Shown here piece by piece: positions 1 to 28,561 of a stretch of 33,379 nucleotides of DNA. Under the pieces are notes generated by a model. The model did no database searches. It saw only the letters and a list, made by a program, of their open reading frames with translations, and was not told where the DNA came from. The stretch is from an uncultured Pseudomonadota bacterium (GTDB lineage: Bacteria > Pseudomonadota > Gammaproteobacteria > Ga0077536). The position numbers and the translations under genes are program-made. Position 1 is the first letter of the stretch, and each line of letters begins with the position of its first letter. The stretch spans positions 1-33,379 of the forward strand of contig CAIKBL010000050.1 in assembly GCA_903825645.1 (NCBI GenBank), in the 5' to 3' direction.

Positions 1-4782
<4,782 letters not shown>

Positions 4783-4820
4783 GCACGTACGATACACCCA
4801 AGACGCGCACAAATAACTGT

Positions 4821-4849
4821 AATATAAGTGTTTTCACGTATATTTTAAA
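4821..4849 (-). promoter_or_regulatory. Candidate sigma-70 promoter for the GAF kinase gene
   Basis: On the minus strand TTTAAA (4849-4844) and TATATT (4826-4821) are separated by 17 bases, in the only strongly AT-rich stretch near the kinase start. The predicted transcript would begin near 4814 and give a leader of about 30 bases before ATG 4782. The -10 matches consensus at five of six positions and the -35 at four. Prediction only. Confidence 0.35.
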
Positions 4850-5233
4850 TTCCGTGGTGGGGTTTTTTTGCAGGATTTTCGTCTACGTTGTACGGGAACT
4901 TCGAGATTGAGGGAGCCCTGACGGATCGCGCAAATAAAAACCAAACGTGCCATGTGCGGCCCCTCACTTTTATTGAAGTTTTAAGGAGCGGCCAGGAACA
5001 TCCTCACCGAACTCCTCCCGCCCATCGCGAGAGGGGCCTGCACGTCGTAACCCCACGTTTCGGCAGTGCAGTCAGGGCCACCCGGCAACAGCGCGGGAGT
5101 TGGGCGTGGTCTAGCAGAGCATCTAATTTCATATCTTGGAAGTAAAGCCCGGCAGATACGTACGTGAGCGGCTTGGAAATACGCGCCATAACCGCGCTGC
5201 GCGCTGTCCAAGTGCTGACACTGATTCTAAAGC
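4850..5233. other. Gene-poor intergenic stretch, no recognised feature
   Basis: The short open frames on both strands here (for example 4981-5211 minus and 4888-5145 plus) show no recognisable domain, no good ribosome binding site, and cysteine- and arginine-rich composition typical of out-of-frame GC-rich DNA. With the adjoining kinase relic it looks like eroded sequence. Nothing else is seen. Confidence 0.5.
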
Positions 5234-5338
5234 GCGATAGTCTTTTCCGAAAGATATGTCTCAGATTTAAGCTGAGTGACCCGGACTTCTAGTGTCTTAA
5301 TTTCATGCTGCTGCGCGGCCAACTCTTTTCCCTGCGGC
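5234..5338 (-). pseudogene. Possible relic of a coiled-coil-encoding 3' end
   Basis: On the minus strand a frame ending in TAG near 5234 reads as a heptad-like, charged helix (key stretch KELAAQQHEIKTLEVRVTQL, then KSETYLSEKTIAL). This composition differs from the arginine/cysteine-rich shadow frames around it and resembles a coiled coil as found in IS66-type transposase N-termini, phage fibre tails or similar. No start codon or full domain can be assigned, and upstream the frame enters the antisense of the kinase relic. Identity not established; it may be chance. Confidence 0.22.
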
Positions 5339-5339
5339 G

Positions 5340-5753
5340 AGGTGTCATCTCGCTCCGCGCTGAGTTGCTCAACCCAGTTCGGACCAGTTTGCACTACGGT
5401 TCACGCTGTATCGCGCCTTCACTGCGCATTACCCTTAGGGGGAAATCGAACCCTTTACACGACCCCGCTTTGGACAGGGTACGCCGCTGTCTCGCTACCG
5501 GCCCGATCTGCCCGCGTGGATTGAACACTTGCTGGCTCGCGCAACTGATGCCAACCCCCTTGCGCGTTACAGTGATCTGCTGGAGCTCGCACTGGAACTG
5601 GAAAGCAGCATGGTGCGCGGCGAGCCGTTGATCTTACGCCGTGTCTCTCTGTACGAGCGCAACCCGCTTCGTTTCTGGCAATGGACAGCCGCGCTGCTGG
5701 CAATAGATCTCGCGGTGAGTCTCGCGCAGCACGGGCTAGGGCCTTTAAAGTAA
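5340..5753 (+). pseudogene. Decayed 3' end of a PP2C/serine-threonine kinase-type gene
   Basis: The last part reads cleanly: key stretches GEIEPFTRPRFG, LSRYRPDLPAWIEHLLARAT and ERNPLRFWQWTAALLAIDL, ending in a hydrophobic segment and TAA 5751-5753. This resembles the C-lobe end, linker and terminal membrane helix of bifunctional PP2C-phosphatase/protein-kinase proteins often found beside nitrate-assimilation genes. Upstream the DNA still resembles codons for a kinase helix-F region (like QSDLFALGVTLYRALTGHYPYGE), but the expected Tyr codon is TAG at 5436-5438 and an extra base near 5379-5382 shifts the frame. Only about 130 codons of a gene normally well over 500 codons remain; the kinase core and phosphatase domain are gone. 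I infer a dead remnant. The family call rests on remembered motif similarity and was not searched. Confidence 0.72.
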
Positions 5754-5774
5754 GGCGTGCTCGTCTATAACGCC

Positions 5775-5799
5775 GTCCGGTGCGCATGCCCGCACGGAC
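5775..5799. terminator. Hairpin after the kinase relic
   Basis: GTCCG-g-TGCG (5775-5784) pairs with CGCA-CGGAC (5791-5799) around the loop CATGCC. It lies just downstream of the relic's stop and may be its former terminator. There is no T-run after it, so termination strength is doubtful. Confidence 0.3.
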
Positions 5800-6215
5800 A
5801 CCGCCCCGCTAGATGGGCGCGCTAAAACAGTCTTCGCCCCTGCCGGTGACCGAGCCGTTGACGGCTACAAGCCTGCGCGACGCGTCAAGATCGACGGCAT
5901 GCATCGAGAACCTCGCTTTATTTGCGTCAATCCCGTCGAGCGTTGGCTGATCGGTCCCTTTCGTCCCTTTGAGGCGCCTATCGTCGGGGTCAGACATACC
6001 TGGCCTCCGGCGCGTGCCATTCCGGATGGGGATCGCGCAACCTGACAAAATAGCTCAGATCACGCAGACTTAGGCAGCGACGTGCTCCGGATAGCGAAAA
6101 TCGCTCGACGATCCGTCTACTCACCGTGGTGCGCAGGGAACTAGGCCTGATATGTCAATGCCAACGCCCTTGCGGCGCCTCTCGACGATCCCAACCATGC
6201 TGTGGATGTAGCCGC
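5800..6215. other. Gene-poor stretch upstream of the ABC-like gene
   Basis: A 79-codon minus frame (5809-6048) and its plus-strand counterpart show no domain I recognise and no convincing start. Whatever promoter drives the 6216-15401 block must lie here, but no clear -35/-10 pair or operator could be picked out. Nothing else is seen. Confidence 0.45.
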
Positions 6216-8006
6216 GTGAACGCTTCAACCGAATCGTTTGGTCGCAAAACCTGGGCCCGATGTACGACCCACATCAAGGTTTTCCTCACCTCGCCTGATG
6301 CCGGTCCCCAAGCGAAATGGATGTCCGGGCTGCTCGTCGTTTTTCTGTTAGGCATCAACGCGCTGAGTGTCCTGAATAGTTATGTCGGTCGTGATGTCAT
6401 CACGACCCTCGCGAATCGTGACCTGCCCGGATTTTCGCGACAAGCGCTGTTGTGGTTACTGGTGTTCGCGGGCGCGACGCTCGTCTCCGTGGTTTCGCGC
6501 TATATCGAAGAGCGACTGGGACTGCTGTGGCGTAATTGGACGACCCGGCGAGTCCTGAGCCGTTACATGAGTCATCGCGCGTACTATCGGATTTCCGTGT
6601 CGGGCGAAATCGAACATCCGGATCAGCGCATTACAGAGGACATCCGCACCTTCACGGTCACCACCTTGTCCTATGTTCTCATGCTACTGAATGGTTCCAT
6701 CACGGCCATCGCCTTTGCCTATGTGCTGTGGTCAATCAGTCCGCTCCTGTTGTTCGTAGCCATTGCCTATGCGGCATTCGGATCGCTGCTGACGCTCAAG
6801 CTGGGCCGTCGACTCATGCGGCTCGACTTCTGGCAACTCGATAAGGAGGCCAAATTTCGCGCTGCACTTGTCCACCTCAAGGTCAATGCGCGTCTCGTCG
6901 CGGTTGCTCAACGCGAGGGCTATCTTAGCGAACGCCTCATGTCACTGCTCACCGAACTCACGAGCAATGCCGAGCGCATCATCCGGGTGAATCGCAACGT
7001 CGGTTTTTTTACCACCGGTTATAACTGGCTGATTCAACTCATCTCTCTCGTGCTGGTCGCCCCGCTCTATGCGCATGGAGAAGTCCAGTTCGGTGTCGTG
7101 ACCCAAGCCGCTGCGGCATTCGCCCAGCTCGTTGGCGCCTTCTCGCTGATTGTGACCCAATTCCAGTCGCTGTCTTCCTTCGCTGCGGTCGTGACCCGCG
7201 TGGATAGTCTTTTCACGGCCGTCAGACCAAGCCCAGAAGCCAGTGTTGAGCCGTTCATCAACGTGCTCGACCAGGGTGATCACGTGCGCTTCGAGGAGGT
7301 CTGCATCCCACGCGCGAACAGTGGCGGCGCCCTGATTAACAAGCTCACCCTCGCCATCAAGGCGGGGCAACGCGTGCTCATAATCGGCCAAGAGGAAGCC
7401 GCGCTTTCAGCCTTGTTCCGGGCCACCGCCGGCTTGTCGACACCCGGCACCGGAGCGATTTTCCGACCGCCTTGCGGACAGATCATGTATCTCTCCGAGC
7501 GTCCCTATCTTCCTTTGACTATCCAGGACTTTCTCCTGCAACCCGGACCCATCGATTGTGATCCGGCTACGGTTTTTTTCACCGATCCCGGGGAGACGGT
7601 GGCGTCCGCGTGTCCCCTGCCCTGGTTCCCCGCCGGCAACACCCACCAGGTATTAGCTGAATTGGATCTGACTGCGCTCTATGAGCGCCTAAGCTTGCTG
7701 CAGGACGAGCACGACTGGGATAGCCGCCTGACGCTAGGTGAGCAGCAACTGCTCGCCTGCGCGCATCTTCTACTCATGTCGCCTCTTTTCGCAGTGCTCG
7801 ACAGGCCGAACACGACCCTTGAGAACGTCACGTTGAAGAAGGTTTACGGTGCGCTCCAGGCGCGCGGCATTGGGTATATCGCTTTTGGTGGCGAGGCGAC
7901 CCATCCTGAGCACTACGACACGATCGTGGAGCTGTTGCCGGATGGCCGTTGGCGTAGCCGTGCCAGTCAACCGCCACCCGATGAAAGCTCTGGTCGACAC
8001 GCGTGA
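6216..8006 (+). CDS. ABC transporter-like protein (YddA/ABCD type) with degenerate ATPase domain
   Basis: Inner-membrane protein of 596 residues from GTG 6216; the open frame extends upstream to 6126 but that part is Cys/Arg-rich and unlike the family. Residues ~30-330 form a transmembrane domain of the SbmA/YddA/peroxisomal ABCD type (ABC_membrane_2-like) with about six hydrophobic helices and the cytoplasmic loop segment RITEDIRTFT typical of that family. The C-terminal half aligns with an ABC ATPase, but key motifs are lost. Walker A is GQEEAALS from Gly391, lacking the invariant Lys. Walker B ends LDRPN, with Arg where the catalytic Glu should be. The H-loop His is replaced in AFGGEATH. 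A signature remnant, LTLGEQQ, remains. The frame is intact, so this is not simple decay. The stop overlaps the next gene's GTG by 4 nt, implying coupled expression with the glycan enzymes. I infer an ATPase-dead transporter or scaffold; an ion-coupled mode like SbmA is possible. Confidence 0.85.
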   Translation: MNASTESFGRKTWARCTTHIKVFLTSPDAGPQAKWMSGLLVVFLLGINALSVLNSYVGRDVITTLANRDLPGFSRQALLWLLVFAGATLVSVVSRYIEERLGLLWRNWTTRRVLSRYMSHRAYYRISVSGEIEHPDQRITEDIRTFTVTTLSYVLMLLNGSITAIAFAYVLWSISPLLLFVAIAYAAFGSLLTLKLGRRLMRLDFWQLDKEAKFRAALVHLKVNARLVAVAQREGYLSERLMSLLTELTSNAERIIRVNRNVGFFTTGYNWLIQLISLVLVAPLYAHGEVQFGVVTQAAAAFAQLVGAFSLIVTQFQSLSSFAAVVTRVDSLFTAVRPSPEASVEPFINVLDQGDHVRFEEVCIPRANSGGALINKLTLAIKAGQRVLIIGQEEAALSALFRATAGLSTPGTGAIFRPPCGQIMYLSERPYLPLTIQDFLLQPGPIDCDPATVFFTDPGETVASACPLPWFPAGNTHQVLAELDLTALYERLSLLQDEHDWDSRLTLGEQQLLACAHLLLMSPLFAVLDRPNTTLENVTLKKVYGALQARGIGYIAFGGEATHPEHYDTIVELLPDGRWRSRASQPPPDESSGRHA

Positions 8007-11000
8007 GCGTCACCGCGATGAGTGACGCCGCCCACCGTGCGCCAGAAGATCTGACCGTTCCCACCGCCTGGACACCGTATGCGCCCGGACAAACCGAACT
8101 CCAGATCACGCCCGTCGTCAGCGCGTGGGGTCCGACGCTTCGACTCGAATTCGATTTTCATGACGGCGGCGGCTTTGTCATCGCACGCCGCGCATGCCCA
8201 CTCGTGTTGCCTGAAAATTTCTCTTTCACCTTCGCGCTCCGAGGCGATGCACCCCGCAATCATTTCGAGTTCAAGCTGGTGGATGCCAGCGGCCATAATG
8301 TTTGGCGCTTCCGTGAAGCAGACTTTGCCGTGCCGGCCACCTGGCAGCACATGACCCTCACCGACGAGGATATCCCCTTTGGCTGGGGCCCCTTGGGTGG
8401 CGGTCCCCCGCGCGACGTCGCCTCGATCGAATTCGCCATCGCCGCCGGCCCCGGTGGCCGGGGTACCCTCGAACTGGCGGCGCTCACGCTGCAAGATGAC
8501 ACCTATCGGCTGACGCCCCAGATCTCGGCCTCCAGCACACGCGCCGGTTATCTCCCCGGCAACGTTCTCGCGGACACGGCCACCACCGGTTGGCACAGCG
8601 CTGAGTTGGCCGGGCAATGGCTGGCGATTGATTTTGGGATGGTCCGCGGCATGGGAGCACTCGCCATCGACTGGGCTGACACGTCGCATGGCGACGAGGC
8701 GTGGATCCAAACTTCGCCGGATGGGGCGGTGTGGGTCACGGTTGGCACCCTGAAAACGGGTCACGGCGCTCGCCGCCATGTCCTGTTGAATACCCGCACG
8801 CGGCACCTGCGCGTGGTTTGCCCGGCAGCGACCGCCACAGGTTTCGGGATCCGGCACGTCGAGATCAAACCGAACCGCTGGGGCAAATCGCTTAACGATT
8901 TTTTTGCCGCCCTGGGTGCGGAGGCACCCCGCGGGCACTATCCACGTTACCTGCAGGGCGAGCAGAGTTACTGGACCGTGATCGGCACCCCGACAGGCGG
9001 TGCTCACGCCCTGTTCAACGAAGAAGGGATGGTGGAGATCAGCCGGGGTGGCCCCACGTTGGAGGCTTTCGTGCACTGTGCCGATCACCTGCACACCTGG
9101 GCTGACGCCACGATTGGCCAAGCGCTGGTCGACAGCTGGATCCCCCTGCCGAGCAGTACATGGGCCTGCCCCGACTTTAGCCTTACGATCCGCGCCAGCG
9201 CGTTAGCGGAAACACCCGCGGGTTTGCAGATTCATTACCGCCTCGAAAATACGACGTCCACGGCCCGAACGATGATCCTGTTTGTTGCCATTCGACCGTT
9301 TCAGGTGACGCCGCACTGGCAGGCCTGGAAAAATTTCGGCGGCGTGGCCAACCTCCACACGCTGGAAGCCCGCGAGGACGGGGTCTGGATTGACGGGCAC
9401 ATCTGCCTATCCTCGCCGCGCAAGCCGTTTCGATTCGGGGCGTTGACCTTTGCGGACGGTCCGGTGACAGCGGCGCTCAGCGCCGGGCAGCTACCGAGCG
9501 CACAGCGCGTAGACGATCCCTTCGGCGCCGCCACGGGCGTGCTCGCCTTTACCGTATCGCTCGCGCCGGCTGCGCATCAGGACATCGTGCTCTCCGTCAC
9601 GCCCGGCGCCCCTCCGGACCGCGCGGACCCAACTGTCCCAGTCCTTCAATCGTTCGTGAAGGCCGCCGAGCAGTGGCAAACCCAGCTAACGGGATGGGAC
9701 ATCCAACTGCCCGAGGGGGCGCAAGATCTGGTGCACGACATCAAGACTGCCGCCGCCCATATTTTAATCAATCGTGACGGCCCCGCCCTGCAACCGGGTC
9801 CACGCCGCTATACTCGGGCCTGGATCCGGGACGGCGTCATCATGGGTTGCGCCCTGCTGCGTCTTGGCTTGAAGACCCCTCTGCGCGACTTTGTACGCTG
9901 GTATGCGCTGGCGCAGCGGGACGACGGCATGCTTCCAGATTGCCGCGATAGCGAAGGGGCCGAGTGGCTACCCGAGTTCGATGCCTTCGGCGAGCTCGTC
10001 TATGCCATCGCAGAATATTTCAGGTTCAGCGCAGATAAGGCTTTTGTCCGGGAGCTCTGGCCTGCAGTCACCGCCGCGTTGAACTGCATGGCGCAATTAC
10101 GGGCCACGCGCTTGACGCCCGAATACGAAACGCCGGCGCGTCGACGCTATTACGGTCTACTGCCCGAATCCATGAGCCACGAAGGGTACATGGGTCATCC
10201 AGCGCACGCGTATTGGGATGACTTCTGGGGTCTGCGGGGATTGAAAGACGGCATCGCGCTCGCCGCGACACTCGACGACGTACCCGCCTACGCCCAGTAC
10301 ACCCAACTTCTCGCGGATTTCAGGCGGGATGTTTATGCGTCAATTGCGCGCTGCGCGCGGGAGTTAACCCTCGATTTCATCCCCGGCTCCGCGGATCAGG
10401 CCGATCTGGATCCCACCGCCACGGCCATCGCCCTCGCGCCCGTCGATGAATTGGCGCATTTGCCCCGTAATCTGCTTGAACATACCTTTGACCTTTATCT
10501 GACGACGCTGCGGCGGCGGCATGCAGATCAGCACTGGCATAATTACACGGCCTATGAGATCCGGATCGCCGGGGCTCTGTTGCGCCTAGGACGCCGCAGT
10601 GATGCGCTTGAGGTACTCGCCTCCATGCAGGCCGACCAACGACCACGCGCCTGGCACCAATGGCCAGAAATTTCCTGGCGGGATCCCTTAAGCCCGAGCT
10701 TTCTGGGGGATTTGCCCCATACCTGGATCGCCGCTGAATACATTTTGGTCGTCACCGCACTGTTTGCTTTCGAAAGGGAGGCAGACGAGGCCTTGGTGAT
10801 TGGGGCCGGCATCGCGGCTGCCTGGTTACGTGACTGCTTTGTGGTGGAGGTAAAAGCGTTGCCGACCCACTATGGTCCGCTGAGCTATACCCTGCGCCAG
10901 GTACATGCGGGCGCTTTACGCCTGCAGATCCCGGCCGGCATTACCATGCCGCGCGGCGGGATCATCATTCAACCGCCCCTCGATAGGCCTTTACGTCAGG

Positions 11001-11089
11001 TCACGGTCAATGAGGTACCGATCGAATCCTTTGGCCCCGACAGCGTGACTTGTCTGCACTGTCCCGCAGACATCGTGATGACATACTGA
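8003..11089 (+). CDS. Discoidin-domain protein with (alpha/alpha)6 glycoside hydrolase-like domain
   Basis: Large protein of 1028 residues, probably cytoplasmic since no signal peptide is seen. Residues ~20-160 resemble a jelly-roll carbohydrate-binding module (GTLELAALTLQDD edge). Residues ~165-290 look like an F5/8-type C (discoidin) domain, with QWLAIDFGMVRGMGALAIDW and WIQTSPDGAVWVTVG. A beta-sandwich region follows to ~540. The last third, ~565-960, looks like a glucoamylase/GH15- or GH94-type helical toroid: RAWIRDGVIMGCALL, DDGMLPDCRD, PEFDAFGELVYAIAEYF and AYWDDFWGLRGLKDG hold acidic residues that could be catalytic. The GTG start overlaps the ABC-like gene's stop by 4 nt; ATG 8018 is an alternative. 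A phosphorylase-like gene follows after 64 bp. I infer an oligosaccharide-processing role with the next enzyme; substrate and bond specificity are unknown. Confidence 0.8.
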   Translation: MSVTAMSDAAHRAPEDLTVPTAWTPYAPGQTELQITPVVSAWGPTLRLEFDFHDGGGFVIARRACPLVLPENFSFTFALRGDAPRNHFEFKLVDASGHNVWRFREADFAVPATWQHMTLTDEDIPFGWGPLGGGPPRDVASIEFAIAAGPGGRGTLELAALTLQDDTYRLTPQISASSTRAGYLPGNVLADTATTGWHSAELAGQWLAIDFGMVRGMGALAIDWADTSHGDEAWIQTSPDGAVWVTVGTLKTGHGARRHVLLNTRTRHLRVVCPAATATGFGIRHVEIKPNRWGKSLNDFFAALGAEAPRGHYPRYLQGEQSYWTVIGTPTGGAHALFNEEGMVEISRGGPTLEAFVHCADHLHTWADATIGQALVDSWIPLPSSTWACPDFSLTIRASALAETPAGLQIHYRLENTTSTARTMILFVAIRPFQVTPHWQAWKNFGGVANLHTLEAREDGVWIDGHICLSSPRKPFRFGALTFADGPVTAALSAGQLPSAQRVDDPFGAATGVLAFTVSLAPAAHQDIVLSVTPGAPPDRADPTVPVLQSFVKAAEQWQTQLTGWDIQLPEGAQDLVHDIKTAAAHILINRDGPALQPGPRRYTRAWIRDGVIMGCALLRLGLKTPLRDFVRWYALAQRDDGMLPDCRDSEGAEWLPEFDAFGELVYAIAEYFRFSADKAFVRELWPAVTAALNCMAQLRATRLTPEYETPARRRYYGLLPESMSHEGYMGHPAHAYWDDFWGLRGLKDGIALAATLDDVPAYAQYTQLLADFRRDVYASIARCARELTLDFIPGSADQADLDPTATAIALAPVDELAHLPRNLLEHTFDLYLTTLRRRHADQHWHNYTAYEIRIAGALLRLGRRSDALEVLASMQADQRPRAWHQWPEISWRDPLSPSFLGDLPHTWIAAEYILVVTALFAFEREADEALVIGAGIAAAWLRDCFVVEVKALPTHYGPLSYTLRQVHAGALRLQIPAGITMPRGGIIIQPPLDRPLRQVTVNEVPIESFGPDSVTCLHCPADIVMTY

Positions 11090-11153: not shown

Positions 11154-14100
11154 ATGACAACGTCCGCACCTGCGTCGCCCTATCCCAGACGACTCGGCCA
11201 ATCTGACCGGCTGCTGATGACGTTAAACGCCAACGGCGCTGTCAATCGTTTCTCGTGTGGCGACATCTCGTTGAACCTGTTTCCCGGCAGTGAAATGGAG
11301 GGCGGTCCAACGAATGTGTACCTGCGCCGGCTTGCGCCCGACGGGTTCTCTAGCGCGACGCCGTTACTGGGCCCGAAAAGTCCCGCAAAATATTCAATCA
11401 CCGAAGCGGGCTTCAACGCCGATGGCGCATGGGAAGGTATTGGCTTTTCGCTCCAGCTCGTCTTGTCACCCACCAGCCTTGCCTGGTTCTGGCAGGTAAG
11501 TCTGCAGAATCTGACCAGCGCAACGAGCGTGGTCGACTTGATCTATACCCAAGATCTTGCCCTGGCGGACTACGGTTTTCTGCGCACCAACGAGTACTAC
11601 ACCAGTCACTACTTGGACCACACCCCGCTCCTGCATCCTCAAGTCGGCACTGTGCTTGCGACCCGCCAGAATCTTGAGATGCGGGGTAGACACCCCTGGG
11701 TCGTCATCGGCTCGCTCCGTCGCGGCGTCGCCTTCTGTAGCGATGCACGCCAGTTCTACGGCTTAGGCCTGCGCCACCATACGGGGCCGGCGGCACTTCG
11801 CGGCGCGCTACCGGGTCGAGATCAGCACGAACATGCCCTGGCAGCCATCCAGGACAATGCGCTGACGCTCCCCATCGGTGAAACCGTCACCTGCGGTTTC
11901 TTTGGCCTATTCGAGCGTGACCATCCGGCGGCGAGTGACGGCTCTGATCTCGCGCGTGTGACGCACACCTTGACGCTTCCTGAAGCCCGCCCGCCGACGC
12001 CAGCGGCGGCGGCGCAAAGCGCACCGGCGCCGACCCTGTTCAGCGTGGCGTCTATTTTTATCGCGGCAGATTTGTCCGCCGCTGAGCTTGTCGCCTTTAG
12101 CGGTGCGACGTTGCGGCTTACGGAGCAGGACGCGACCGGTACACTCTCCGGTTTCACGCCGGACCATCGCCATATCGTGTCGAAGCGCAAGGAGCTACAG
12201 GTGTTACGGCCGCATGGCCAGATTTTGCGCACCGGCAGTCATGATTACCCTGAGGAGGCGTCGCTCACCACCACGGTTTGGATGGCGGGGGTTTTTAGTT
12301 CGATGCTGACACAGGGACATGTGGCCATCAATCGATGCCTGTCAGCGACCCATAGCTACTTGAGTCTATTCCGGGCGCAGGGGCAACGCGTCTTCGTCGA
12401 GATGGAAAACGACTGGCAGCTGCTTGATGTGCCCTCCGCCTGTGAATTCTCGCTGGATGGCTGCCGTTGGCGCTACCAGCAAGCCGACACCCATCTCGAA
12501 GTTTCCACGCAGATGCGGCGGGACACGCATGACATTATCTTCACCGTATCCGTGCTTGCCGGACCGGCCCGACGCTTCCTGATTTCGCACCACATCGCGT
12601 TCACTGGCGATAATGGCGCCAACGCCGGTGCGATAGCCTACCGTGTCTCAGACACAGAAGTCGTGCTCGAGCCCGCCGGAGGGACCGAGATCGGCACCCG
12701 TTTCCCGGGCGGTGGTTTCCGCATACGGCCAGAACCCGGCACCGTCGTCGAGCGGTTAGGCGGTGACGAATTATTGTTCTGTGATGGCCGCACGAGAGCA
12801 CAACCGTTCTTTTGCATCATCACCGCGCCAAGCCGGCAAATCGGCCTGAATCTGCGCGTTGATTTGATCGCGCAGGAAACACGCGCGGCAACCGCCGATC
12901 CGCCCTCAACGTACTGGCGGAGGCTCTCGCGCGGACTCACGCTGCGCCTCCCGCACGACGCGTCCGCCGCGCGGGAGATCGAGGCCATCGACACTATCCT
13001 GCCGTGGTTCGCCAGCAATGCGATGGTGCATTATCTCGCACCGCGCGGGCTCGAGCAGTTTACCGGCGGCGGCTGGGGCACCCGGGATGTTTGCCAAGGT
13101 CCGCTTGAGTTATTGCTGTCGCTTGGTCATTTCGCCGAGGCCCGACATCTGCTCACCCAGGTATTCGCGGCGCAGAATGCGGATGGCGATTGGCCGCAAT
13201 GGTTCTGCTTTTTTCCCCGCGACCGACATCTCCGTGCGACCGACGCGCATGGCGATATTATTTTCTGGCCGCTCCTCGCGCTCGCGACCTATCTAGAAGT
13301 CACGACCGACGGCGCCCTGCTCGATGAACGATTGCCTTATTACACCCCGACAGACAGCCCGCGCGTAGAAATGGATACCCTTCTCGGCCATGTGAAACGG
13401 GCCCTCGGGTGCATTGAGTCGCGCTTGATTCCGGGCACCGCCCTCATCGCCTACGGTCATGGGGACTGGAATGACGCCATGCAGCCCTTCGATCCGGCGA
13501 TGCGTGAGCGCTTGTGCAGTAGCTGGACGGTCACGTTGCATTACCAGACCTTGCGCGCGCTCGCCCGCGCCACCACGCTGATCAGCCGCGCGCAGGAAAG
13601 TGCCGCACTCATAGATGCTGCCGTAGTCGTCCGCGCCGCATTCCAGCAGATCCTTGTCGTCGATGAAGTGATCGCGGGGTTCGCCTACTTCCACCCCGAT
13701 GGCCGCATCGACTATCTGGTGCATCCGCGAGATCAGGTGACCGGTCTGACTTACAGCGCGCTGCCAATGATCCACGCCCTCGCCCAGGACATGCTCACGC
13801 CGGCGCAGGCGGCGTCACATCTTAAGATCATCGCCGCGCACCTTCGAGGCGTGGATGGCGTCCGTCTATTCGATCGCCCACTGCGCTACCATGGGGGGAT
13901 ATGCACCTGGTTTCAACGCGCGGAAAGTGCCGCGTTTTTCGGACGCGAAATCGGACTTATGTATACCCACGCCCATCTGCGTTACTGCGAGGTCTTGGCT
14001 CGACACGGATCAGCGGAAGCCTTCTTTTTTGCGCTCTGCCAGGTCAACCCCATCGATGTCTGTGCCCGGATCCCGGGCGCGAAGCCGCGCCAGGCCAACT

Positions 14101-14558
14101 GCTATTATTCAAGTTCGGATGCGGCGTTTCCCGACCGCTATGTGGCGGCAGACCATTACGCGCAAGCCCTCCAGGGCACGGTGCCGCTTGAAGGTGGTTG
14201 GCGCATTTATTCCAGCGGTCCTGGGATCGCCGTCGGGCTGATCGTTCGCTCCCTCCTCGGTCTGCGTATCACGCAGGCGGGGTTAGACCTAGATCCGGTG
14301 ATGTCCCTGGCCCTCGATGGACTCGAGGTTGAGATTGATCTCTTCGATCGGCCTTTCCGTGTGCGCTACCACGTTGGCGCACCGGGCTATGGTCCGGTCA
14401 GCGTTGAATTAAATGAGCAACCTTTAGCTTTCACGCGACTGCCCAATCCCTATCGCACGGGCGGCGCACGCCTCACTCGCGAGGCCCTGCTGAGCCACCC
14501 GCGCACGACGGGAAACAATCTGGTGATCCAGTTAGGCGCCGTGCCGTGGCCCGCCTGA
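11154..14558 (+). CDS. GH94/GH149-like glycoside phosphorylase
   Basis: Protein of 1134 residues without signal peptide. The N-terminal half (~1-560) is a beta-sandwich of the type found in inverting beta-glucoside phosphorylases and in the phosphorylase part of cyclic beta-1,2-glucan synthases (ASPYPRRLGQSDRLLMTLNA; TNEYYTSHYL). The helical catalytic domain starts near 600, with APRGLEQFTGGGWGTRDVCQ, QNADGDWPQWF and HGDIIFWPLLALATYLE, then GHGDWNDAMQPFDP, where Asp771 of the DWND motif corresponds to the region holding the catalytic acid in GH94. Length fits GH149 (beta-1,3-oligoglucan phosphorylase, roughly 1100 residues) better than plain cellobiose phosphorylase (about 800). Such enzymes use phosphate to split a beta-glucan into glucose-1-phosphate and a shortened chain. 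It sits in the same block as the discoidin protein. Family group is firm; exact GH family and substrate are inference. Confidence 0.82.
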   Translation: MTTSAPASPYPRRLGQSDRLLMTLNANGAVNRFSCGDISLNLFPGSEMEGGPTNVYLRRLAPDGFSSATPLLGPKSPAKYSITEAGFNADGAWEGIGFSLQLVLSPTSLAWFWQVSLQNLTSATSVVDLIYTQDLALADYGFLRTNEYYTSHYLDHTPLLHPQVGTVLATRQNLEMRGRHPWVVIGSLRRGVAFCSDARQFYGLGLRHHTGPAALRGALPGRDQHEHALAAIQDNALTLPIGETVTCGFFGLFERDHPAASDGSDLARVTHTLTLPEARPPTPAAAAQSAPAPTLFSVASIFIAADLSAAELVAFSGATLRLTEQDATGTLSGFTPDHRHIVSKRKELQVLRPHGQILRTGSHDYPEEASLTTTVWMAGVFSSMLTQGHVAINRCLSATHSYLSLFRAQGQRVFVEMENDWQLLDVPSACEFSLDGCRWRYQQADTHLEVSTQMRRDTHDIIFTVSVLAGPARRFLISHHIAFTGDNGANAGAIAYRVSDTEVVLEPAGGTEIGTRFPGGGFRIRPEPGTVVERLGGDELLFCDGRTRAQPFFCIITAPSRQIGLNLRVDLIAQETRAATADPPSTYWRRLSRGLTLRLPHDASAAREIEAIDTILPWFASNAMVHYLAPRGLEQFTGGGWGTRDVCQGPLELLLSLGHFAEARHLLTQVFAAQNADGDWPQWFCFFPRDRHLRATDAHGDIIFWPLLALATYLEVTTDGALLDERLPYYTPTDSPRVEMDTLLGHVKRALGCIESRLIPGTALIAYGHGDWNDAMQPFDPAMRERLCSSWTVTLHYQTLRALARATTLISRAQESAALIDAAVVVRAAFQQILVVDEVIAGFAYFHPDGRIDYLVHPRDQVTGLTYSALPMIHALAQDMLTPAQAASHLKIIAAHLRGVDGVRLFDRPLRYHGGICTWFQRAESAAFFGREIGLMYTHAHLRYCEVLARHGSAEAFFFALCQVNPIDVCARIPGAKPRQANCYYSSSDAAFPDRYVAADHYAQALQGTVPLEGGWRIYSSGPGIAVGLIVRSLLGLRITQAGLDLDPVMSLALDGLEVEIDLFDRPFRVRYHVGAPGYGPVSVELNEQPLAFTRLPNPYRTGGARLTREALLSHPRTTGNNLVIQLGAVPWPA

Positions 14559-14711: not shown

Positions 14712-15401
14712 ATGCATCTCAGGCCCAACCACACCCGCTGGAAAAGTTCGTTCGCTCTGGCGTTAACCCTGATGCTAGTGTCCACCGCCATATGCTCGGC
14801 GGCCCCCACACCGGAGCAACTGCTTGCTATGGCGTTTGTCGACATCCCCAATCAGTCTTGGAAAATGGCGCGTTACGCGGTGACCTTTGCGCAATGGGAT
14901 CTGTGCGTCAAAAAGGGCGGGTGTCAGGCCTATGACCCTGCGGATCAGGGCTGGGGACGCGATAACCGACCGGTCATCAACGTCTCTTGGGATGACGCGC
15001 AGAATTTTATCGATTGGCTCAATCTCGGCGCGCGACATCACTATCGATTACCCACCGAAGAAGAGTGGGTTTACGCGGCCCATGGTGGCACCACGACGGA
15101 TTATTACTGGGATAGCGGGGTGGGAAGTGGGCATGCCAACTGCTACGGATGCGGCAGTCAATGGGACGGCAATCAAACCGCGCCCGTGGGTAGTTTTCCG
15201 CCGAATCCCTACGGGCTCTACGATATGCTCGGTAACGTCGCCCAGTGGACGGATACCTGTTGGGCGGAGGACTGCGTGCAACGGAGCCTTCTGGGCGGAT
15301 CTTGGAGCGCAGATCCCCAAGACCTCCGGGTTAACTTCCGTGCGCGTCTTAAGGCGAGCAGCCGAAGTGCCCACAATGGGTTTCGTCTCATTCAGGATTA
15401 A
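14712..15401 (+). CDS. Secreted formylglycine-generating-enzyme-like (SUMF1/FGE-sulfatase domain) protein
   Basis: 229 residues. An N-terminal signal peptide is clear: basic TRWKSS, a hydrophobic core ALALTLMLVSTAI, and a cleavage-like CSAAP near residue 30. The rest is a compact SUMF1/DUF323 domain: YAVTFAQWDLC, RPVINVSWDDAQNFIDWL, YRLPTEEEWVYAAHGG, NPYGLYDMLGNVAQWTDTCW, LLGGSW and a C-terminal NGFRLI. The usual N-terminal strand pair ('MV.IPGG.F.MGS') is shortened, making it smaller than most family members (about 250-320 residues). It has several Cys (two pairs around CYGC and CWAEDC) that could be disulfides in the periplasm. True FGE activity needs a specific active-site Cys pair, which I cannot confirm. 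Many bacterial members are not sulfatase activators, and no sulfatase gene is in the window. It may be a surface lectin-like or enzyme-accessory protein. Confidence 0.85.
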   Translation: MHLRPNHTRWKSSFALALTLMLVSTAICSAAPTPEQLLAMAFVDIPNQSWKMARYAVTFAQWDLCVKKGGCQAYDPADQGWGRDNRPVINVSWDDAQNFIDWLNLGARHHYRLPTEEEWVYAAHGGTTTDYYWDSGVGSGHANCYGCGSQWDGNQTAPVGSFPPNPYGLYDMLGNVAQWTDTCWAEDCVQRSLLGGSWSADPQDLRVNFRARLKASSRSAHNGFRLIQD

Positions 15402-15450: not shown

Positions 15451-16461
15451 TTATCGGAATGCGGGGATCACTTCTTTCGCGAACAACTCCAGATGTTCAT
15501 TGCTCCATTCCGGATGCAGGCCCGGCGGCACCGTCCAGCTGTACCAACGCGACGTGCCTGTCGCCTCGACGTAATCCTTGATCATCTCGATGGCCTTGGC
15601 CGGCTCTACGATGTGGAAGCCGCTCGCTTCGAGCTCGGCGCGATCGGCGTTCACTGGATGGAAGAAGTCCATACCGGCATCCGCGAACCATTTAGCATAA
15701 CGATTGATTTGGTACGCGAAATGGGCCTTCGCCTCTTCCCAACGCTTATCCGGATCCCGCGCGACCATGAGCCACACGTAGCCCCCGGCAATTTCGTGAT
15801 CGGCCGGATCTTTACCGATTTTTTTGAGCTGATCCCAATAAAGATTCGCGAAAGGACTGATGGGGCCTGTCGCGATATAGCCATAGCCGACACGTGCCGC
15901 GCGCCGCACGGCGACGTTACTGAAGCCGGCGATCCAAAGCTTGGGCGGTTGCTGGACCGGTCGGGGAAACAGCTGAATATCATTGTAGGTGTAATGCTTA
16001 CCCTTGAAGCTGAAGCGCTCCCCCGCGAATAACCGTTGGATGATCTCAATCCCCTCATCCATGCGTTGCGCACGCTCTTTAGAATCGATGTTGAAACCCG
16101 TGAACTCCTCCACGCGGTACCCTACGCCCAAGCCCAATTCGAGCCGACCATTCGAAATCACATCGAGGGTGGCCGCGTCTTCCGCGACGCGAACGGGATC
16201 ATGCAACGGCAACAGCAGAACGCTGGTGCCAATGCGAATACGTTTAGTGCGGGCCGCAATGGCACAACCAATCGGCAACATCGACGGCGAATAACCATCG
16301 TCAATGAAATGATGCTCGGACAACCAGACATCATCAAACCCTAATTGCTCGGCGTAGACGATTTGATCGAGCGTAGCGGCGTACACCTCTGCGTCAGAGC
16401 GCTGCCCTTGTGAAGGATTGCGAAAATCATACCAGAGGCCAAAAGTAAGCTTTTTTTTCAT
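15451..16461 (-). CDS. Luciferase-like flavin/F420-dependent monooxygenase (LLM class)
   Basis: 336-residue bacterial-luciferase-fold oxidoreductase. The opening MKKKLTFGLWYDFRNPSQG, then YAEQLGFDDVWLSEHHF, RIRIGTSVLLLPLHDPVRVA, ATLDVISNGRLELGLGVGYR and PPKLWIAGFS, are typical of the LLM-class TIM barrel that binds FMN or F420. The acidic-His SEHHF motif lies in the cofactor/substrate pocket. It probably reduces or oxygenates a small organic or acyl-CoA-linked substrate in the cytoplasm. The F420 biosynthesis operon begins 1 kb away, so F420 is the more likely cofactor; this is context inference, as LLM members using FMNH2 look much the same. It is divergent from the crotonase gene at 16621 with a 159-bp shared upstream region. 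ATG 16461 has no obvious Shine-Dalgarno sequence. Confidence 0.88.
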   Translation of the reverse strand: MKKKLTFGLWYDFRNPSQGQRSDAEVYAATLDQIVYAEQLGFDDVWLSEHHFIDDGYSPSMLPIGCAIAARTKRIRIGTSVLLLPLHDPVRVAEDAATLDVISNGRLELGLGVGYRVEEFTGFNIDSKERAQRMDEGIEIIQRLFAGERFSFKGKHYTYNDIQLFPRPVQQPPKLWIAGFSNVAVRRAARVGYGYIATGPISPFANLYWDQLKKIGKDPADHEIAGGYVWLMVARDPDKRWEEAKAHFAYQINRYAKWFADAGMDFFHPVNADRAELEASGFHIVEPAKAIEMIKDYVEATGTSRWYSWTVPPGLHPEWSNEHLELFAKEVIPAFR

Positions 16462-16620
16462 GGCGGGTTACTCAATGTTCAGATCCAAAAACGGAGTCGA
16501 CTAATTGTAACGGCGCTCACGTCTATTTGTGCACCCGAGGAGCAATGAGGACGACGCTAGCGCCACGCGGCGCCGCGCCGCACAATGCATCGACCTTATT
16601 TGTTCAGGAGGAGTCGTCTC

Positions 16621-17406
16621 GTGTCATTCAAGTATTTGCGCATAGCGCAACACGACCATGTCCAGCTCGTGACCTTCACCCGCCCGGCGCGCGCCAATGC
16701 CGTCAATTATGACTTTCTGGTTGAAATCGAGGCCTGCGCGCACGCCTTGCGGGAAGCGCCCGAGATCCGCGCCGTGGTCTTCACGGGCGAAGGCAAGCAT
16801 TTCAGTTCGGGGATGGATCTGGAGGATGACAGCGGCTATGACGTGCCGTTACTACTGCGCCGCCGCCGCATTCAGGCCGGTGCCCGCGCCATTACAGCCC
16901 TTTATGGCATAGACCAAATCACGATTGCGGCTTGGCGGGGCGCCGCCATGGGGGGCGGGGCCTGCCTCACCACCGCGCTCGATTTCCGCGTCGGGGCGGA
17001 TAACTGTTTTATGTGTTACCCCGAAATCGATATCGGGATGAACTTGATGTGGCAGAGTTTACCGCTCGCGGTGCATCTGGTGGGACCGGCCCGAGCTAAA
17101 CGGCTGGTCGTGGGGGGAGAGCACATCACCGCCCCAACACTCCTGGATTGGGGCATGTTGGACGAGATGGTGGTCCCAGAGGAAGTCGTGCCGCGGGCGA
17201 TGAAACTGGCCACTTTCTATGCCAGCAAGCCGCCCCTAGCCGCCCAGATGATCAAGCAGAGCGTTAACCGGATTGCCTCGGCGCTTGATCACAGCATCAT
17301 GCACATGGACATTGATCAAAATCTGCTGATGCGCACCACCCAAGACCAGTCAGAGGCATTCGCGGCTTATCTCGCGAAGCGCCCGCCACACTTTGTCGGG
17401 GAATGA
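16621..17406 (+). CDS. Enoyl-CoA hydratase/isomerase family protein (crotonase fold)
   Basis: 261 residues from GTG 16621, chosen because a strong AGGAGGAG (16606-16613) sits 7 bases upstream; the upstream ATG at 16585 would place that site inside the gene. Crotonase landmarks: VTFTRPARANAVNYDFL, AVVFTGEGKHFSSGMDLED (CoA and oxyanion loop), AAWRGAAMGGGACLTTALDFR and CYPEIDIGMNLMWQSLPLAV. The position of the first catalytic Glu of true hydratases is Ala/Cys here, while the second Glu is kept in YPEID, so an isomerase or other crotonase reaction is as likely as hydration. It ends in KRPPHFVGE, a common family tail. It lies between the LLM gene (divergent) and the F420 operon (convergent) and may act on the same substrate as the 22767-31623 operon. 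Confidence 0.9.
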   Translation: MSFKYLRIAQHDHVQLVTFTRPARANAVNYDFLVEIEACAHALREAPEIRAVVFTGEGKHFSSGMDLEDDSGYDVPLLLRRRRIQAGARAITALYGIDQITIAAWRGAAMGGGACLTTALDFRVGADNCFMCYPEIDIGMNLMWQSLPLAVHLVGPARAKRLVVGGEHITAPTLLDWGMLDEMVVPEEVVPRAMKLATFYASKPPLAAQMIKQSVNRIASALDHSIMHMDIDQNLLMRTTQDQSEAFAAYLAKRPPHFVGE

Positions 17407-17450
17407 AACGACTGTCTACCTGTAGTCCGACCGCCCGGTGCGGTGTCGGG

Positions 17451-17466
17451 GCGCCCTAACGGGCGC
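17451..17466. terminator. Hairpin at the end of the F420 operon
   Basis: GCGCCC (17451-17456) and GGGCGC (17461-17466) enclose a TAAC loop directly beside the fbiC stop codon, between the convergent crotonase gene and the F420 operon. A second imperfect stem (CCGAC...GTCGG) lies at about 17427-17449. No T-run; probable bidirectional terminator. Confidence 0.45.
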
Positions 17467-19917
17467 TCAAGCCCGCACGGCGGGATTGCGGACCAGTTTC
17501 TGACGCTCGCTGCGCTCGTAGGCTTTAGCTGGCGTGTTGACAATCTCCGACAGCTCGCCGGCTTGCTGCCCCGTCGCCACCCGCTCGTCACTGACCACCC
17601 CGTAGGTCGTCGAGCGCTGCCGCGCTTGGCGCCCCGCGCTCGCGATCATGGCTAACATCTCGAGCGAATTCGTTTCCTGTCCGTGACTCGCGCCGGCCGC
17701 CCGCGTAATACTTTCGTTCATCAGCGTGCCGCCGAGATCGTTCACGCCAGCGCCGAGACAGGCCACGACGCCGGCATGCCCCATTTTCACCCATGACGCC
17801 TGGATGTTGGTAATCAGCGGATTCAGCGCAAGGCGGGCCACGGCGTGCATCAGAATCGCCTCGCGGAACGTGGGTCCCTTACGTGCCTTCCCCTTGAGAT
17901 AAAGGGGCGCTTCCATATGGACGAAGGGCAGCGGAACGAATTCCGTGAAGCCACCAGTTTCAGCCTGAAGTGCTCGAAGACCCAGTAAGTGTCGCGCCCA
18001 GTTCTCATAGCGATCAACGTGTCCGTACATGATCGTCGAAGTCGTTCGGAACCCCACTTCATGCGCGGTTCTCATGACTTCGAACCATTGCGCCGTGTTA
18101 ATTTTGTCCGGGCATATCACCTTACGAACTTCATCATCGAGGACTTCGGCAGCGGTCCCCGGTAACGTATCAAGTCCCACCACATGCAGGCGTTCAAGAT
18201 ACGCACGCAAGGGTATTTTCAGTGTCGCGGCGCCCTGCCAGACCTCGAGCGGCGAGAACGCATGCACATGCATCGCCGGCTCCACCGCCTTAACGGCCGC
18301 CACGATGTCGAGATAGGTCTGACCCGTGTATTGCGGGTGAATGCCCCCCTGCATGCAGACTTCGGTGGCCCCACGGGACCAACCTTCGCGCACCCGCCGC
18401 TGAATTTCAGCTATGTCCAGATCGTAGGGCTTCCCGCGCAGATTTTCCGACAGCTTCCCTTTCGAAAACGCACAGAACTGACATTTGAAATAGCAGACGT
18501 TCGTATAGTTGATATTACGGTTAACGACGTAACTCACCACGTCCCCGTTGTGGTGTCGACGCAAGGTATCCGCGGCCTGACACACGTACGCGAAATCATC
18601 TCCTCTCGCCTGGAAAAGACGGACGATCTCAGCCTCGCCGAGTCCCTCTCCCGCACAAGCACGGGCCACGGCGGCGGCTACTTCAGGTGACACCCGCGTC
18701 GGCAACTTGGCCAGCAACCCCAAGTCATGCGCACTCGGCGTCACCTCATCCCCGGGACACCACGGATCCGGGCGCGGCAAACCCTCGGCATCAATCGCCT
18801 GCAACACCGGCGTGCGAAACACAGGGGCGAGCCAGGTTTCGCCGGCGAGCGCGTAACGCGGATAGACGGTCAGGCGCTCCTGCAGGAGCTTTCCGGCCGC
18901 GGCGGTTGCTGCGGTTAATTCATCCAAATGCGGCCAGGGTGCTTCAGGATTCACGTAATCCGGGGTCAACGGCGACACGCCACCCCAATCGTTGATCCCC
19001 GCCCCGATCAGTTGCGGCAGGACCCCGGGACTCAGGTTTGGCGGCGCCTGGATACTCATCTCTACGCCGAACAGCACGCGTGCCAGCGCCAAGGTCCACA
19101 ACATCTCCGCCAAGTCGGGCTCTGGCGCGTCCACCATTTTGGTGCCCGCTTTAGCCCGGAAATTCTGGATGATAATTTCCTGAATATGGCCATGACGGGC
19201 GTGAATGGCGCGAATGGCCAGCAACGACTCGATCCGCTCCTGGCGCGTTTCGCCGATGCCGATCAATATCCCCGTCGTGAACGGAATACGTGCCCGACCG
19301 GCATCCTCCAATGTCTTGAGCCGCACCGCCGGCACTTTATCCGGGGAGCCATAGTGCGGCATCCCCTTTTCGGTCAATCGCTCCGCCGCCGATTCGAGCA
19401 TGATACCCATGCTGGGCGCGACCGCGCGCAAACGCGTCAGTTCGCCCGGATCTAACGTGCCTGGATTAAGATGCGGAAAGAGCCCGGTCTCGCGGAATAC
19501 CGCCTCGGCCGCAGCGCGTAGATAGTCGAGCGTGCTCTCGAAACCCATTTTCGCGAGCGCGGCGCGGGCGGCCTCGTAGCGCAGTTCGGGTCGCTCACCG
19601 AGCGTGAAGAGCGCTTCCTTACAGCCCATCGCTGCCCCATGCCGGGCGACCTCGATGACTTGTTCAATCGACAGATAGGGCTGTTCTACTTTTTTGGGTG
19701 CCTGGGCGAACGTGCAGTAATGGCAGACATCGCGGCAAAGATGCGTCAGCGGAATGAAGACCTTACGCGAATAGGTCACCACATTGCGGAACCCGGCATC
19801 CCGGATGACCGTCGCCGCCGCCATCAGCGACGCCGTGTCTATCCCCGTGATGAGATCAAGGGCTTCCGCATCGCTCGGCAATTGACCGCCCATCGCGCGC
19901 TCAAGCACGGTCCGCAT
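17467..19917 (-). CDS. fbiC: FO synthase, fused CofG-CofH (bifunctional radical SAM)
   Basis: Makes the deazaflavin FO, the chromophore of coenzyme F420, from tyrosine and 5-amino-6-ribitylaminouracil. 816 residues from ATG 19917. The frame stays open upstream to 19980, but the ATG lies just 2 nt after the cofC stop, which favours it. The N-terminal half is CofG, with the radical SAM cluster CxxxCxxC at Cys61, Cys65, Cys68 (CRDVCHYC). The C-terminal half is CofH, with Cys475, Cys479, Cys482 (CYFKCQFC). Other landmarks: GTLDPGELTRLR, GINDWGGVSPLTPDYVNPEA, QGGIHPQYTGQTYLDIV and GAGVNDLGGTLMNESI. The fused form is known from actinobacteria and F420-carrying proteobacteria, whereas archaea use separate proteins. 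Last gene of the cofE-cofD-cofC-fbiC operon. Confidence 0.96.
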   Translation of the reverse strand: MRTVLERAMGGQLPSDAEALDLITGIDTASLMAAATVIRDAGFRNVVTYSRKVFIPLTHLCRDVCHYCTFAQAPKKVEQPYLSIEQVIEVARHGAAMGCKEALFTLGERPELRYEAARAALAKMGFESTLDYLRAAAEAVFRETGLFPHLNPGTLDPGELTRLRAVAPSMGIMLESAAERLTEKGMPHYGSPDKVPAVRLKTLEDAGRARIPFTTGILIGIGETRQERIESLLAIRAIHARHGHIQEIIIQNFRAKAGTKMVDAPEPDLAEMLWTLALARVLFGVEMSIQAPPNLSPGVLPQLIGAGINDWGGVSPLTPDYVNPEAPWPHLDELTAATAAAGKLLQERLTVYPRYALAGETWLAPVFRTPVLQAIDAEGLPRPDPWCPGDEVTPSAHDLGLLAKLPTRVSPEVAAAVARACAGEGLGEAEIVRLFQARGDDFAYVCQAADTLRRHHNGDVVSYVVNRNINYTNVCYFKCQFCAFSKGKLSENLRGKPYDLDIAEIQRRVREGWSRGATEVCMQGGIHPQYTGQTYLDIVAAVKAVEPAMHVHAFSPLEVWQGAATLKIPLRAYLERLHVVGLDTLPGTAAEVLDDEVRKVICPDKINTAQWFEVMRTAHEVGFRTTSTIMYGHVDRYENWARHLLGLRALQAETGGFTEFVPLPFVHMEAPLYLKGKARKGPTFREAILMHAVARLALNPLITNIQASWVKMGHAGVVACLGAGVNDLGGTLMNESITRAAGASHGQETNSLEMLAMIASAGRQARQRSTTYGVVSDERVATGQQAGELSEIVNTPAKAYERSERQKLVRNPAVRA

Positions 19918-19919
19918 GC

Positions 19920-20591
19920 TTACCACGCGGATTGCACCTGATGTCGCGGCAGGACGCGCGTCTGAATCTCGCGATCGCATAGATAGGCCAAGGTTTCTGC
20001 TTCGGTGTCGTAAGTCATTAAGTTTCTCAGATCATCGGGGGTGTCGATGTCAAATGCCAAACCGGGCAGACTAAGCACCTGAACCGCGGCGCCCGCCACT
20101 TCGGCTGCAGCGCAATGGGCCTGGAAACTTTCCCGGCCAAAATGAAATTCCATTAGGCCCGGTGGCGAGACCGCCAGGGCATTGGTGCCGAAACCTTCTC
20201 GGTCGGCCACGATCGTTATCTGGGTCGGGCCGTGATGCTGGCGCACAATCGTTTCGATTTCATCCGCGGTAGCCATCGGCACGTCCCCTGGCAGCATGAG
20301 CATCCGGGTTTCGCCACGCCCTGCAAGAAACTCGCCTGCTTGGCTCACCGCGCGCGAGAGCCCACGGCCTTCTTCATGCAGCGCACAAATCCCGAATTGG
20401 CGCGCCAAGCCGGGGACGGCTTCTTCCTGACTCACCAACAACGTACCCGATACGCCTCGGCAACGACCGAGCGTTGTGAGCAGGTCCTGCAACATCACCC
20501 GCGCAAGTTGAGCACGCTCCACGTCCGTCAGCACTGCACTGAGGCGCTGCTTGGCAAAGACGAACGGTTTGACGGGAATGACCACCCACAT
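19920..20591 (-). CDS. cofC: Phosphoenolpyruvate/2-phospholactate guanylyltransferase (CofC/FbiD)
   Basis: 223 residues. Activates 2-phospho-L-lactate, phosphoenolpyruvate or 3-phosphoglycerate with GTP, producing the side-chain donor for CofD. Nucleotidyltransferase landmarks: WVVIPVKPFVFAKQRLS at the N-terminus, LLVSQEEAVPGLARQFG, EEGRGLSRAV, MLMLPGDVPMAT (metal-binding Asp), GFGTNALAVSPPG and GLAFDIDTPDDL. Length and order are standard for the family. It sits between cofD (43-nt gap upstream) and fbiC (2 nt downstream). Which of the three C3 substrates it prefers cannot be read from sequence by eye. Confidence 0.93.
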   Translation of the reverse strand: MWVVIPVKPFVFAKQRLSAVLTDVERAQLARVMLQDLLTTLGRCRGVSGTLLVSQEEAVPGLARQFGICALHEEGRGLSRAVSQAGEFLAGRGETRMLMLPGDVPMATADEIETIVRQHHGPTQITIVADREGFGTNALAVSPPGLMEFHFGRESFQAHCAAAEVAGAAVQVLSLPGLAFDIDTPDDLRNLMTYDTEAETLAYLCDREIQTRVLPRHQVQSAW

Positions 20592-20634
20592 CGGGCTTAA
20601 TCCGCGTCCCGCACAACTGGAAAAGGGCCGGTTG

Positions 20635-24428: not shown

Positions 24429-24445
24429 AGGCGGGAGATTGTTTG

Positions 24446-26200: not shown

Positions 26201-26238
26201 AGTTAAGATCGGTAACCACTTAGTGATAACTGAATCCC

Positions 26239-27456: not shown

Positions 27457-27481
27457 CCTTTAACTTGCACGGAAACTACGC

Positions 27482-28558: not shown

Positions 28559-28561
28559 CTG

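Follow-up and report, generated by a model that had tools for sequence, protein, structure and literature searches.

What does an ABC exporter-like protein do when its ATPase domain keeps its fold but has lost its catalytic residues, and why does its gene stand beside those of two glycan enzymes? The gene that raises this question, abcX, lies in a contig of an uncultured gammaproteobacterium (CAIKBL010000050.1), of which a stretch of 33,379 nucleotides, the window, was analysed.

The abcX gene and the two enzymes downstream

The abcX gene occupies positions 6216–8006 of the forward strand, starts with GTG and is an open frame of 596 amino acids. The protein matches the Pfam families ABC_membrane_2 (PF06472, 3e-37) and SbmA_BacA (PF05992, 1e-10), and its match to ABC_tran (E 0.0015, 19.6 bits) is below the Pfam cut-off of 25. 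An AlphaFold2 model (overall pLDDT 77) preserves the ABC fold. It features a transmembrane domain of six long helices (residues 30–336; 6303–7223, forward strand), where confidence is low in parts with pLDDT below 50, and a degenerate nucleotide-binding domain (residues 349–585; 7260–7970, forward strand) that retains its fold, with pLDDT mostly ~90 except for residues 441–470, and that aligns with MalK/FtsE-type domains over ~200 residues with Z ~19. By sequence, the nearest solved chains are ABCD-type proteins and Rv1819c, and SbmA is more distant. The protein has the domain order of type IV ABC transporters (YddA/ABCD/Rv1819c), a PF06472-type transmembrane domain followed by a nucleotide-binding fold, but the functional motifs of that class, the P-loop GK[ST], the Walker B glutamate and the H-loop histidine, are absent.

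The motifs were read against L033, an intact paralogue from the same genome, and all of the following lie on the forward strand. In the Walker A remnant LIIGQEEAALSALFR (7377–7421) the lysine is replaced by Leu397, in the Walker B remnant FAVLDRPNTTLE (7788–7823) the catalytic glutamate is replaced by Arg530, and in the H-loop remnant YIAFGGEATH (7875–7904) the histidine is replaced by Gly559. Alignment to L033 additionally places Glu428 at the position of the Q-loop glutamine, and the ABC signature remnant RLTLGEQQLLACA (7725–7763) is in part preserved.

The stop of abcX and the start of the next gene, disc, share the four nucleotides GTGA, with disc beginning at 8003. The clean frame and the 4-nt overlap with a discoidin/glycosidase gene were both described in the first-pass annotation and were confirmed, as was the identity of the two downstream neighbours. 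The first, disc (8003–11089, forward strand), encodes a protein of 1028 amino acids with a discoidin domain (PF00754, 6.6e-9), an (α/α)6-type glycosidase domain and an N-terminus that is not signal-like. No catalytic-domain family of Pfam reaches its cut-off in the window disc. Its AlphaFold2 model (pLDDT 88) was matched by Foldseek to GH94, glucoamylase-type, GH116 and exo-β-D-arabinanase structures with TM-scores by query length of 0.33–0.46; the 50 listed fold matches also include rhamnosidase and one cyclic glucan synthase. Entries of GH144, GH162 and GH192–194 (clan GH-S) are not among these 50, and no Pfam match to them was found. Together with its homologues, disc looks like an unclassified (α/α)6-type glycosidase family with discoidin that comes in forms with and without a signal.

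The second neighbour (11154–14558, forward strand) encodes a GH94 β-1,2-oligoglucan phosphorylase of the SOGP type, with 1134 amino acids, matches to PF21958 (3e-58), PF21250 and PF21270, and an N-terminus that is not signal-like. Its profile matches the structure 5h3z at 9.5e-235 over profile positions 35–1119; this structure we take to be LpSOGP, which fits the residue numbering in the published description of that enzyme. The catalytic residues described for LpSOGP (PMC5309861) are retained in the window SOGP as D774, R644, D645, W772, E932, Y937, H939 and R922 and are invariant in five aligned rows, the numbers having been matched by eye with an offset of one. A small protein of the FGE-sulfatase fold (PF03781) is encoded directly after SOGP, at 14712–15401.

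Loss of the ATPase motifs across the family

A search of 58 genomes, the window's own included, found 19 that match abcX at 1e-20, six of which (again including its own) hold an orthologue and 13 of which match without abcX itself. The five non-self orthologues are 43–59% identical to the window protein, or 45–59% by the genome search itself, and have identical motif losses in all five cases. Homologues of disc and SOGP lie directly downstream in four of these loci, and the contig of the fifth ends inside disc. A sequencing error at the motifs was excluded by the same losses in these five other genomes.

A single-sequence search of genome contigs with the window protein gave no match, but a profile search found relatives, and the best 80 of 118 became the named loci (55 Pseudomonadota, 14 Verrucomicrobiota, 5 Myxococcota, 2 Gemmatimonadota, 1 Thermodesulfobacteriota, 1 Binatota and 2 unplaced). 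Because both profile patterns were taken from the transmembrane domain, candidates were picked independently of their ATPase motifs, although they were finally ranked on the full-length protein. The canonical P-loop (GxxxxGK[ST]), the catalytic glutamate and the H-loop histidine are each found in 0 of 81 members (the 80 loci and the window), two rows being gapped at the glutamate and histidine, whereas all three are present in each of the 43 intact relatives, among them E. coli YddA. Arginine takes the place of the catalytic glutamate in 47 of the 81 and histidine in 24. The first-pass annotation had listed the Walker A lysine among the replaced residues together with the Walker B glutamate and the H-loop histidine. 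This holds for the window protein, but the loss of the lysine is not family-wide, as this residue alone persists in 30/81. The losses are otherwise conserved in orthologues and in the whole family, a point on which the first-pass annotation had left its reading to depend, and they are therefore not a product of recent decay. The record of one named locus, L057 (CAMCBY010000122.1), is titled Klebsiella pneumoniae and is a MAG contig that shares sequence with contig C122 of genome G024; its species label looks wrong, since G024 falls in the window's own taxonomic family.

A tree of the transmembrane domain only (44 dead and 42 intact proteins, YddA and SbmA) places the ATPase-dead form in a single clade, supported in 100/100, with a long stem and adjoining the intact proteins L154 and L155. 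In a quick tree with Verrucomicrobiota added, the intact proteins G457b, G692b and G653 are closer still. The sequences are thus consistent with one origin of the ATPase loss across the sampled clade, and because the trees put abcX beside intact proteins, this loss looks independent of that in SbmA. Constraint within the clade is shifted. Mean pairwise identity among 79 dead members is 61% in the transmembrane domain and 42% in the ATPase domain, versus 53% and 51% among 42 intact relatives, and 102 of the 125 columns that are conserved at ≥90% in the dead clade lie in the transmembrane domain (residue ≤335). Three acids, E98, E99 and D209, are fixed in the dead clade and are not found at those columns in intact relatives.

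Among 221 Verrucomicrobiota genomes, dead abcX was recognised in four; G520 and G560 are two weak ones among the ten matches listed. In a single genome, G576, the abcX protein has only 356 amino acids and ends after the transmembrane domain. SOGP follows with overlapping frames, and tblastn with six query proteins (five of the dead family and one intact) found no remnant of an ATPase domain in what remains of this stretch of 2,825 bases. The contig end lies ~290 bases away on the start side and so does not affect the 3' end of the gene. On the quick tree this protein groups with G692a and L108, nested among the dead forms. The comparison with SbmA drawn in the first-pass annotation was apt, in that intact YddA-like ABC proteins are the neighbours of this family on the tree and the ATPase domain is gone from one of its members. 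In another copy, from Thiocystis violacea (L054:10001–11605), the match is cut short within the ATPase domain by a stop that follows 454 matched residues, and this may be another lineage that is losing the domain.

Genomic context of abcX

The neighbour clusters of abcX include GH94, GH1, phosphoketolase, SOGP, GH144 (PF10091), GT2 and MdoG genes. At least one core glucan gene (SOGP, disc, GH94, GH1, GH144 or MdoG) is present in 53 of the 80 named loci versus 2 of 17 loci of intact relatives, both with MdoG only (Fisher 6e-5). The contrast is biased, because the context HMMs were built from the dead loci. The SOGP and GH94 models overlap. Among 72 representatives under 90% identity, 47 have a core gene within the stretch. 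The linkage of abcX to both downstream enzymes, for which the first-pass annotation had proposed a co-occurrence search, is thus borne out. It had also considered that intact orthologues in the same context would point to recent decay; none was found among the five nearest intact relatives (L181, L182, L265, L268 and L269), whose stretches hold no core glucan gene.

The 27 loci without a core gene within the stretch include a few that adjoin tRNA-synthetase or wax-ester-synthase genes. Twenty-six of them, representing 24 genomes, were checked genome-wide (L044, which shares its record source with L036, was omitted), and 13 genomes proved to have disc and 14 SOGP, in one case as a weak fragment of SOGP. 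Either gene is present elsewhere in 18 of the 24 genomes (19 with the weak fragment), and neither in five. For background, disc is found in 16 of 398 Pseudomonadota genomes (at 1e-10) and full-length SOGP in 6 of 396. Dead abcX is found in 3 of the 396, all of which have SOGP; 84 of the 396 matched abcX in some way, the motifs having been read in the 29 best loci besides the window's and the lower ones separated by score. In the 221 Verrucomicrobiota genomes disc and SOGP are each found in 16, and all four genomes with dead abcX are among the 16 with disc, for which the chance probability, uncorrected for kinship, is 1.9e-5, or 2.6e-4 minus the centre genome. These four rank first to fourth by disc score, and three of them first to third by SOGP score, partly by construction, since the profiles were derived from abcX loci. 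Related genomes in all of these counts are not independent. The enzymes also often occur without abcX: in Pseudomonadota, abcX is missing from 15 of the 16 genomes with disc and from 3 of the 6 with SOGP, and in Verrucomicrobiota from 12 of the 16 with disc.

GH144 has no match in the window; its HMM matches in 13 of 80 abcX loci and, of the 11 Pseudomonadota disc loci without abcX, in 9. Pfam confirmed PF10091 for two proteins. From SOGP, with its retained LpSOGP residues, and from GH144, we infer that the substrate is probably β-1,2-glucan. The Rhizobiales abcX loci (L048, L059, L077, L081–L084, L087, L094, L097, L101, L110 and L113) feature phosphoketolase (XFP) and often GH144 without a signal-like N-terminus.

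The disc loci that do not have abcX reveal what stands in its place. Fifteen such loci were read, eleven from Pseudomonadota and four from Verrucomicrobiota, and 13 of them hold a sugar importer, either a solute-binding protein with a BPD permease (SBP/BPD) or MFS_2; the two exceptions are L192, which is cut by the contig end beside disc, and L195, which holds a more distant disc. An importer of the SBP, BPD or MFS_2 families is found in only one of 91 abcX stretches, at 8.7 kb in L081, where the 91 include five second copies, the sequence shared by L048 and L059 and a number of short contigs. Both comparisons used five importer queries from four of the 15 loci, so that four self-matches are included. 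The window holds no homologues of the tested SBP, BPD and MFS_2 queries. Judged by gene content, abcX is in the slot that sugar-importer families fill in the sister loci.

The N-termini of the enzymes, called signal-like by hydropathy alone at a threshold of 2.0, differ with the transporter. Without abcX, disc has a signal-like hydrophobic start in 10/10 readable Pseudomonadota loci and in 6/6 near-full-length copies (>830 bits) from four Verrucomicrobiota genomes, one of them at 2.01. Beside abcX, 30 of 31 disc proteins are below the threshold, and the one that passes, in L040, does so upstream of the start common to its relatives, in what looks like non-coding sequence. In the Verrucomicrobiota genomes with abcX, disc is without a signal in three of four; G576 is ambiguous (2.32, with an ambiguous disc start). 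GH144 is signal-like in 8/9 cases without abcX, the ninth (L189) having been read too short upstream, versus 0/13 with abcX. Of 15 readable disc copies that abcX genomes carry at other loci, five are signal-like (L215 repeats L197). On the disc tree (53 rows) the signal-less form is one clade and requires one change. These patterns are suggestive of a compartment switch of disc, a single event on its tree, that is paralleled by a second enzyme family.

Candidate function and relation to known systems

The preferred reading, with a probability of roughly 0.6, is that abcX is an ATP-independent inner-membrane importer of a β-1,2-glucan utilisation unit. Such an importer would explain at once the importer slot, the cytoplasmic-looking cutting enzymes and the glucan-degrading loci. 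The Rv1819c/BacA fold features a large water-filled cavity, and an abcX homodimer with such a cavity would pass a long, perhaps cyclic, β-1,2-glucan whole from the periplasm to the cytoplasm. There disc, or GH144 or GH1 in other genomes, would cut the imported glucan, and SOGP or another GH94 enzyme would phosphorolyse the pieces to glucose 1-phosphate. The leftover ATPase domain would serve as a structural dimer clamp. Transport may be driven by the proton gradient via the retained acids E141 and E211 and the clade-specific E98, E99 and D209, or the glucan may enter by facilitated diffusion alone, drawn in as phosphorolysis consumes it. The Walker A lysine in 30/81 members and the preserved part of the signature leave room for a nucleotide role or a partner.

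A known ABC-fold carrier that is driven without ATP is SbmA/BacA (SLiPT), a proton-driven importer of peptides, which is thought to have derived from YddA-like ABC proteins by loss of the nucleotide-binding domain, a proposal made from trees (PMC13316013). The abcX family shares its ABC-type transmembrane fold and two of the six acids of its glutamate ladder (E193, E203, E269, E276, E287 and E378): the E193 position is Glu or Asp in 80/81 members and the E276 position is acidic in 81/81. Intact ATP-driven relatives also have acids at these two positions. The remainder of the ladder is missing, with leucine at the E203 position in 79/81, arginine or lysine at the E287 position in 77/81, asparagine at the E269 position in 79/81 and aspartate in the other two, the window among them, and glutamate at the E378 position in 0/81. 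Additionally, unlike SbmA/BacA, the abcX family retains a dead ATPase domain, as in the window (exceptions were seen in G576 and the truncated L054), and is linked to glucan enzymes, not peptides. On these residues, proton coupling of abcX is possible.

A heterodimer is an unlikely alternative, in which abcX would be the degenerate half that pairs with an intact YddA-like paralogue to give one working ATP site, as in TAP or TM287/288. In heterodimeric ABC exporters the second half supports function. Those with one degenerate site have lost the catalytic glutamate (PMC7756269, PMC7544095), whereas in abcX the canonical P-loop, glutamate and histidine are all gone. The window's own genome has an intact paralogue elsewhere, G457 and G692 each carry one dead and one near intact copy, and G098 and G162 hold further matches, by similarity alone. 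The signature also retains its glutamine in 76/81 members and serine or threonine in 74/81, although its glycine is kept in only 37/81. A search of the ORFs up to 7.5 kb from abcX in the 80 loci found no close ABC partner; the four matches to the ABC set (E <1e-6) are all below 28% identity. The 13 of 58 genomes that match without abcX and the member that consists of the transmembrane domain only, which a partner does not readily explain, also argue against pairing.

It is quite unlikely that abcX is an exporter that releases a glucan made in the cytoplasm by reversed GH94/SOGP, as NdvA/Cgt do for cyclic glucan. NdvA belongs to a different ABC branch, which counts against this proposal. MdoG, present in 10 of 80 loci, and the GT2 genes in some loci would fit synthesis, and glycoside phosphorylases are generally reversible (PMC11842490), but the partners look degradative (GH144, GH1 and phosphoketolase) and the slot in sister loci is taken by importer families (SBP/BPD or MFS_2) and by no exporters.

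The first-pass annotation had also proposed a receptor, or a scaffold for the two cytoplasmic enzymes; either role, with the dead domain sensing a ligand or binding the enzymes, is very unlikely. The ATPase fold is preserved in the model without its catalytic residues, and the frames of abcX and disc overlap. However, constraint is concentrated in the membrane part of the protein, its cytoplasmic domain is less conserved and is missing in G576, the importer slot is occupied by abcX, and in 27 of 80 loci core glucan genes are absent from the neighbourhood, so the role of a receptor or scaffold is not supported. A decaying pseudogene or sequencing artefact has practically no chance of being correct, since one truncated member (L054) and a relaxed ATPase domain are set against open frames in 65 aligned loci of several phyla, 41–60% identical to the window protein, with the same losses, in one clade and with 102 conserved transmembrane columns.

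Returning to the importer, comparison with characterized systems shows where it would differ. Rv1819c, YddA and ABCD1–4 (type IV, PF06472) share the domain order and fold of abcX and are its best solved relatives by sequence and model, and Rv1819c, the mycobacterial BacA, transports water-soluble compounds (PMC10960864). The ATPase motifs are present in YddA and the 42 other intact relatives that were read, whereas the dead clade is without them. The β-1,2-glucan clusters of Listeria and Streptomyces combine SOGP or GH1 with an SBP-dependent ABC importer (PMC12369401, PMC11842490) and thus resemble the abcX loci in having β-1,2-glucan enzymes with a dedicated transporter. They differ in that abcX stands in the window where the SBP-dependent importer stands, and that the downstream glycosidase is unclassified. 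Among the titles and abstract openings of the best matches in PMC, there is no mention of an ATPase-dead YddA-type clade or of its link to β-1,2-glucan.

A wider reading is tentative, at somewhat short of even odds: in this clade an ABC transporter may have turned into an ATP-free carrier a second time and independently, a change in which glucan came to be taken up whole, the depolymerising enzymes moved from periplasm to cytoplasm, and intact, dead-domain and domain-free stages survive. If this is true, the route thought to have led to SbmA would be readable step by step, and the dead clade would provide the apparent missing stages of such a conversion. β-1,2-Glucans are important in symbiosis and osmotic life (PMC11842490), and abcX is a candidate transporter of them for Rhizobium, purple sulfur bacteria and others whose loci, with one exception, hold none of the tested importers. 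Proteins of the dead clade are likely to be labelled as ATP-binding ABC transporters in current annotation.

An Rfam search of the window gave no match. The first ~6 kb (1–6100) holds only short ORFs (60–157 amino acids listed), mostly on the forward strand, with a G+C content of 0.54–0.59; Pfam found no match for two of these ORFs. Genes for F420 biosynthesis, which appear to sit in a gammaproteobacterial genome, are located at 15451–22358 and include a fused CofGH (17467–19980), CofC, CofD and F420 ligase, with an LLM-class oxidoreductase adjoining. The region 22653–32154 encodes acyl-CoA dehydrogenases, MaoC, a CoA-transferase, an APH-like kinase and a CMD protein, and is likely an acyl-CoA catabolic cluster.
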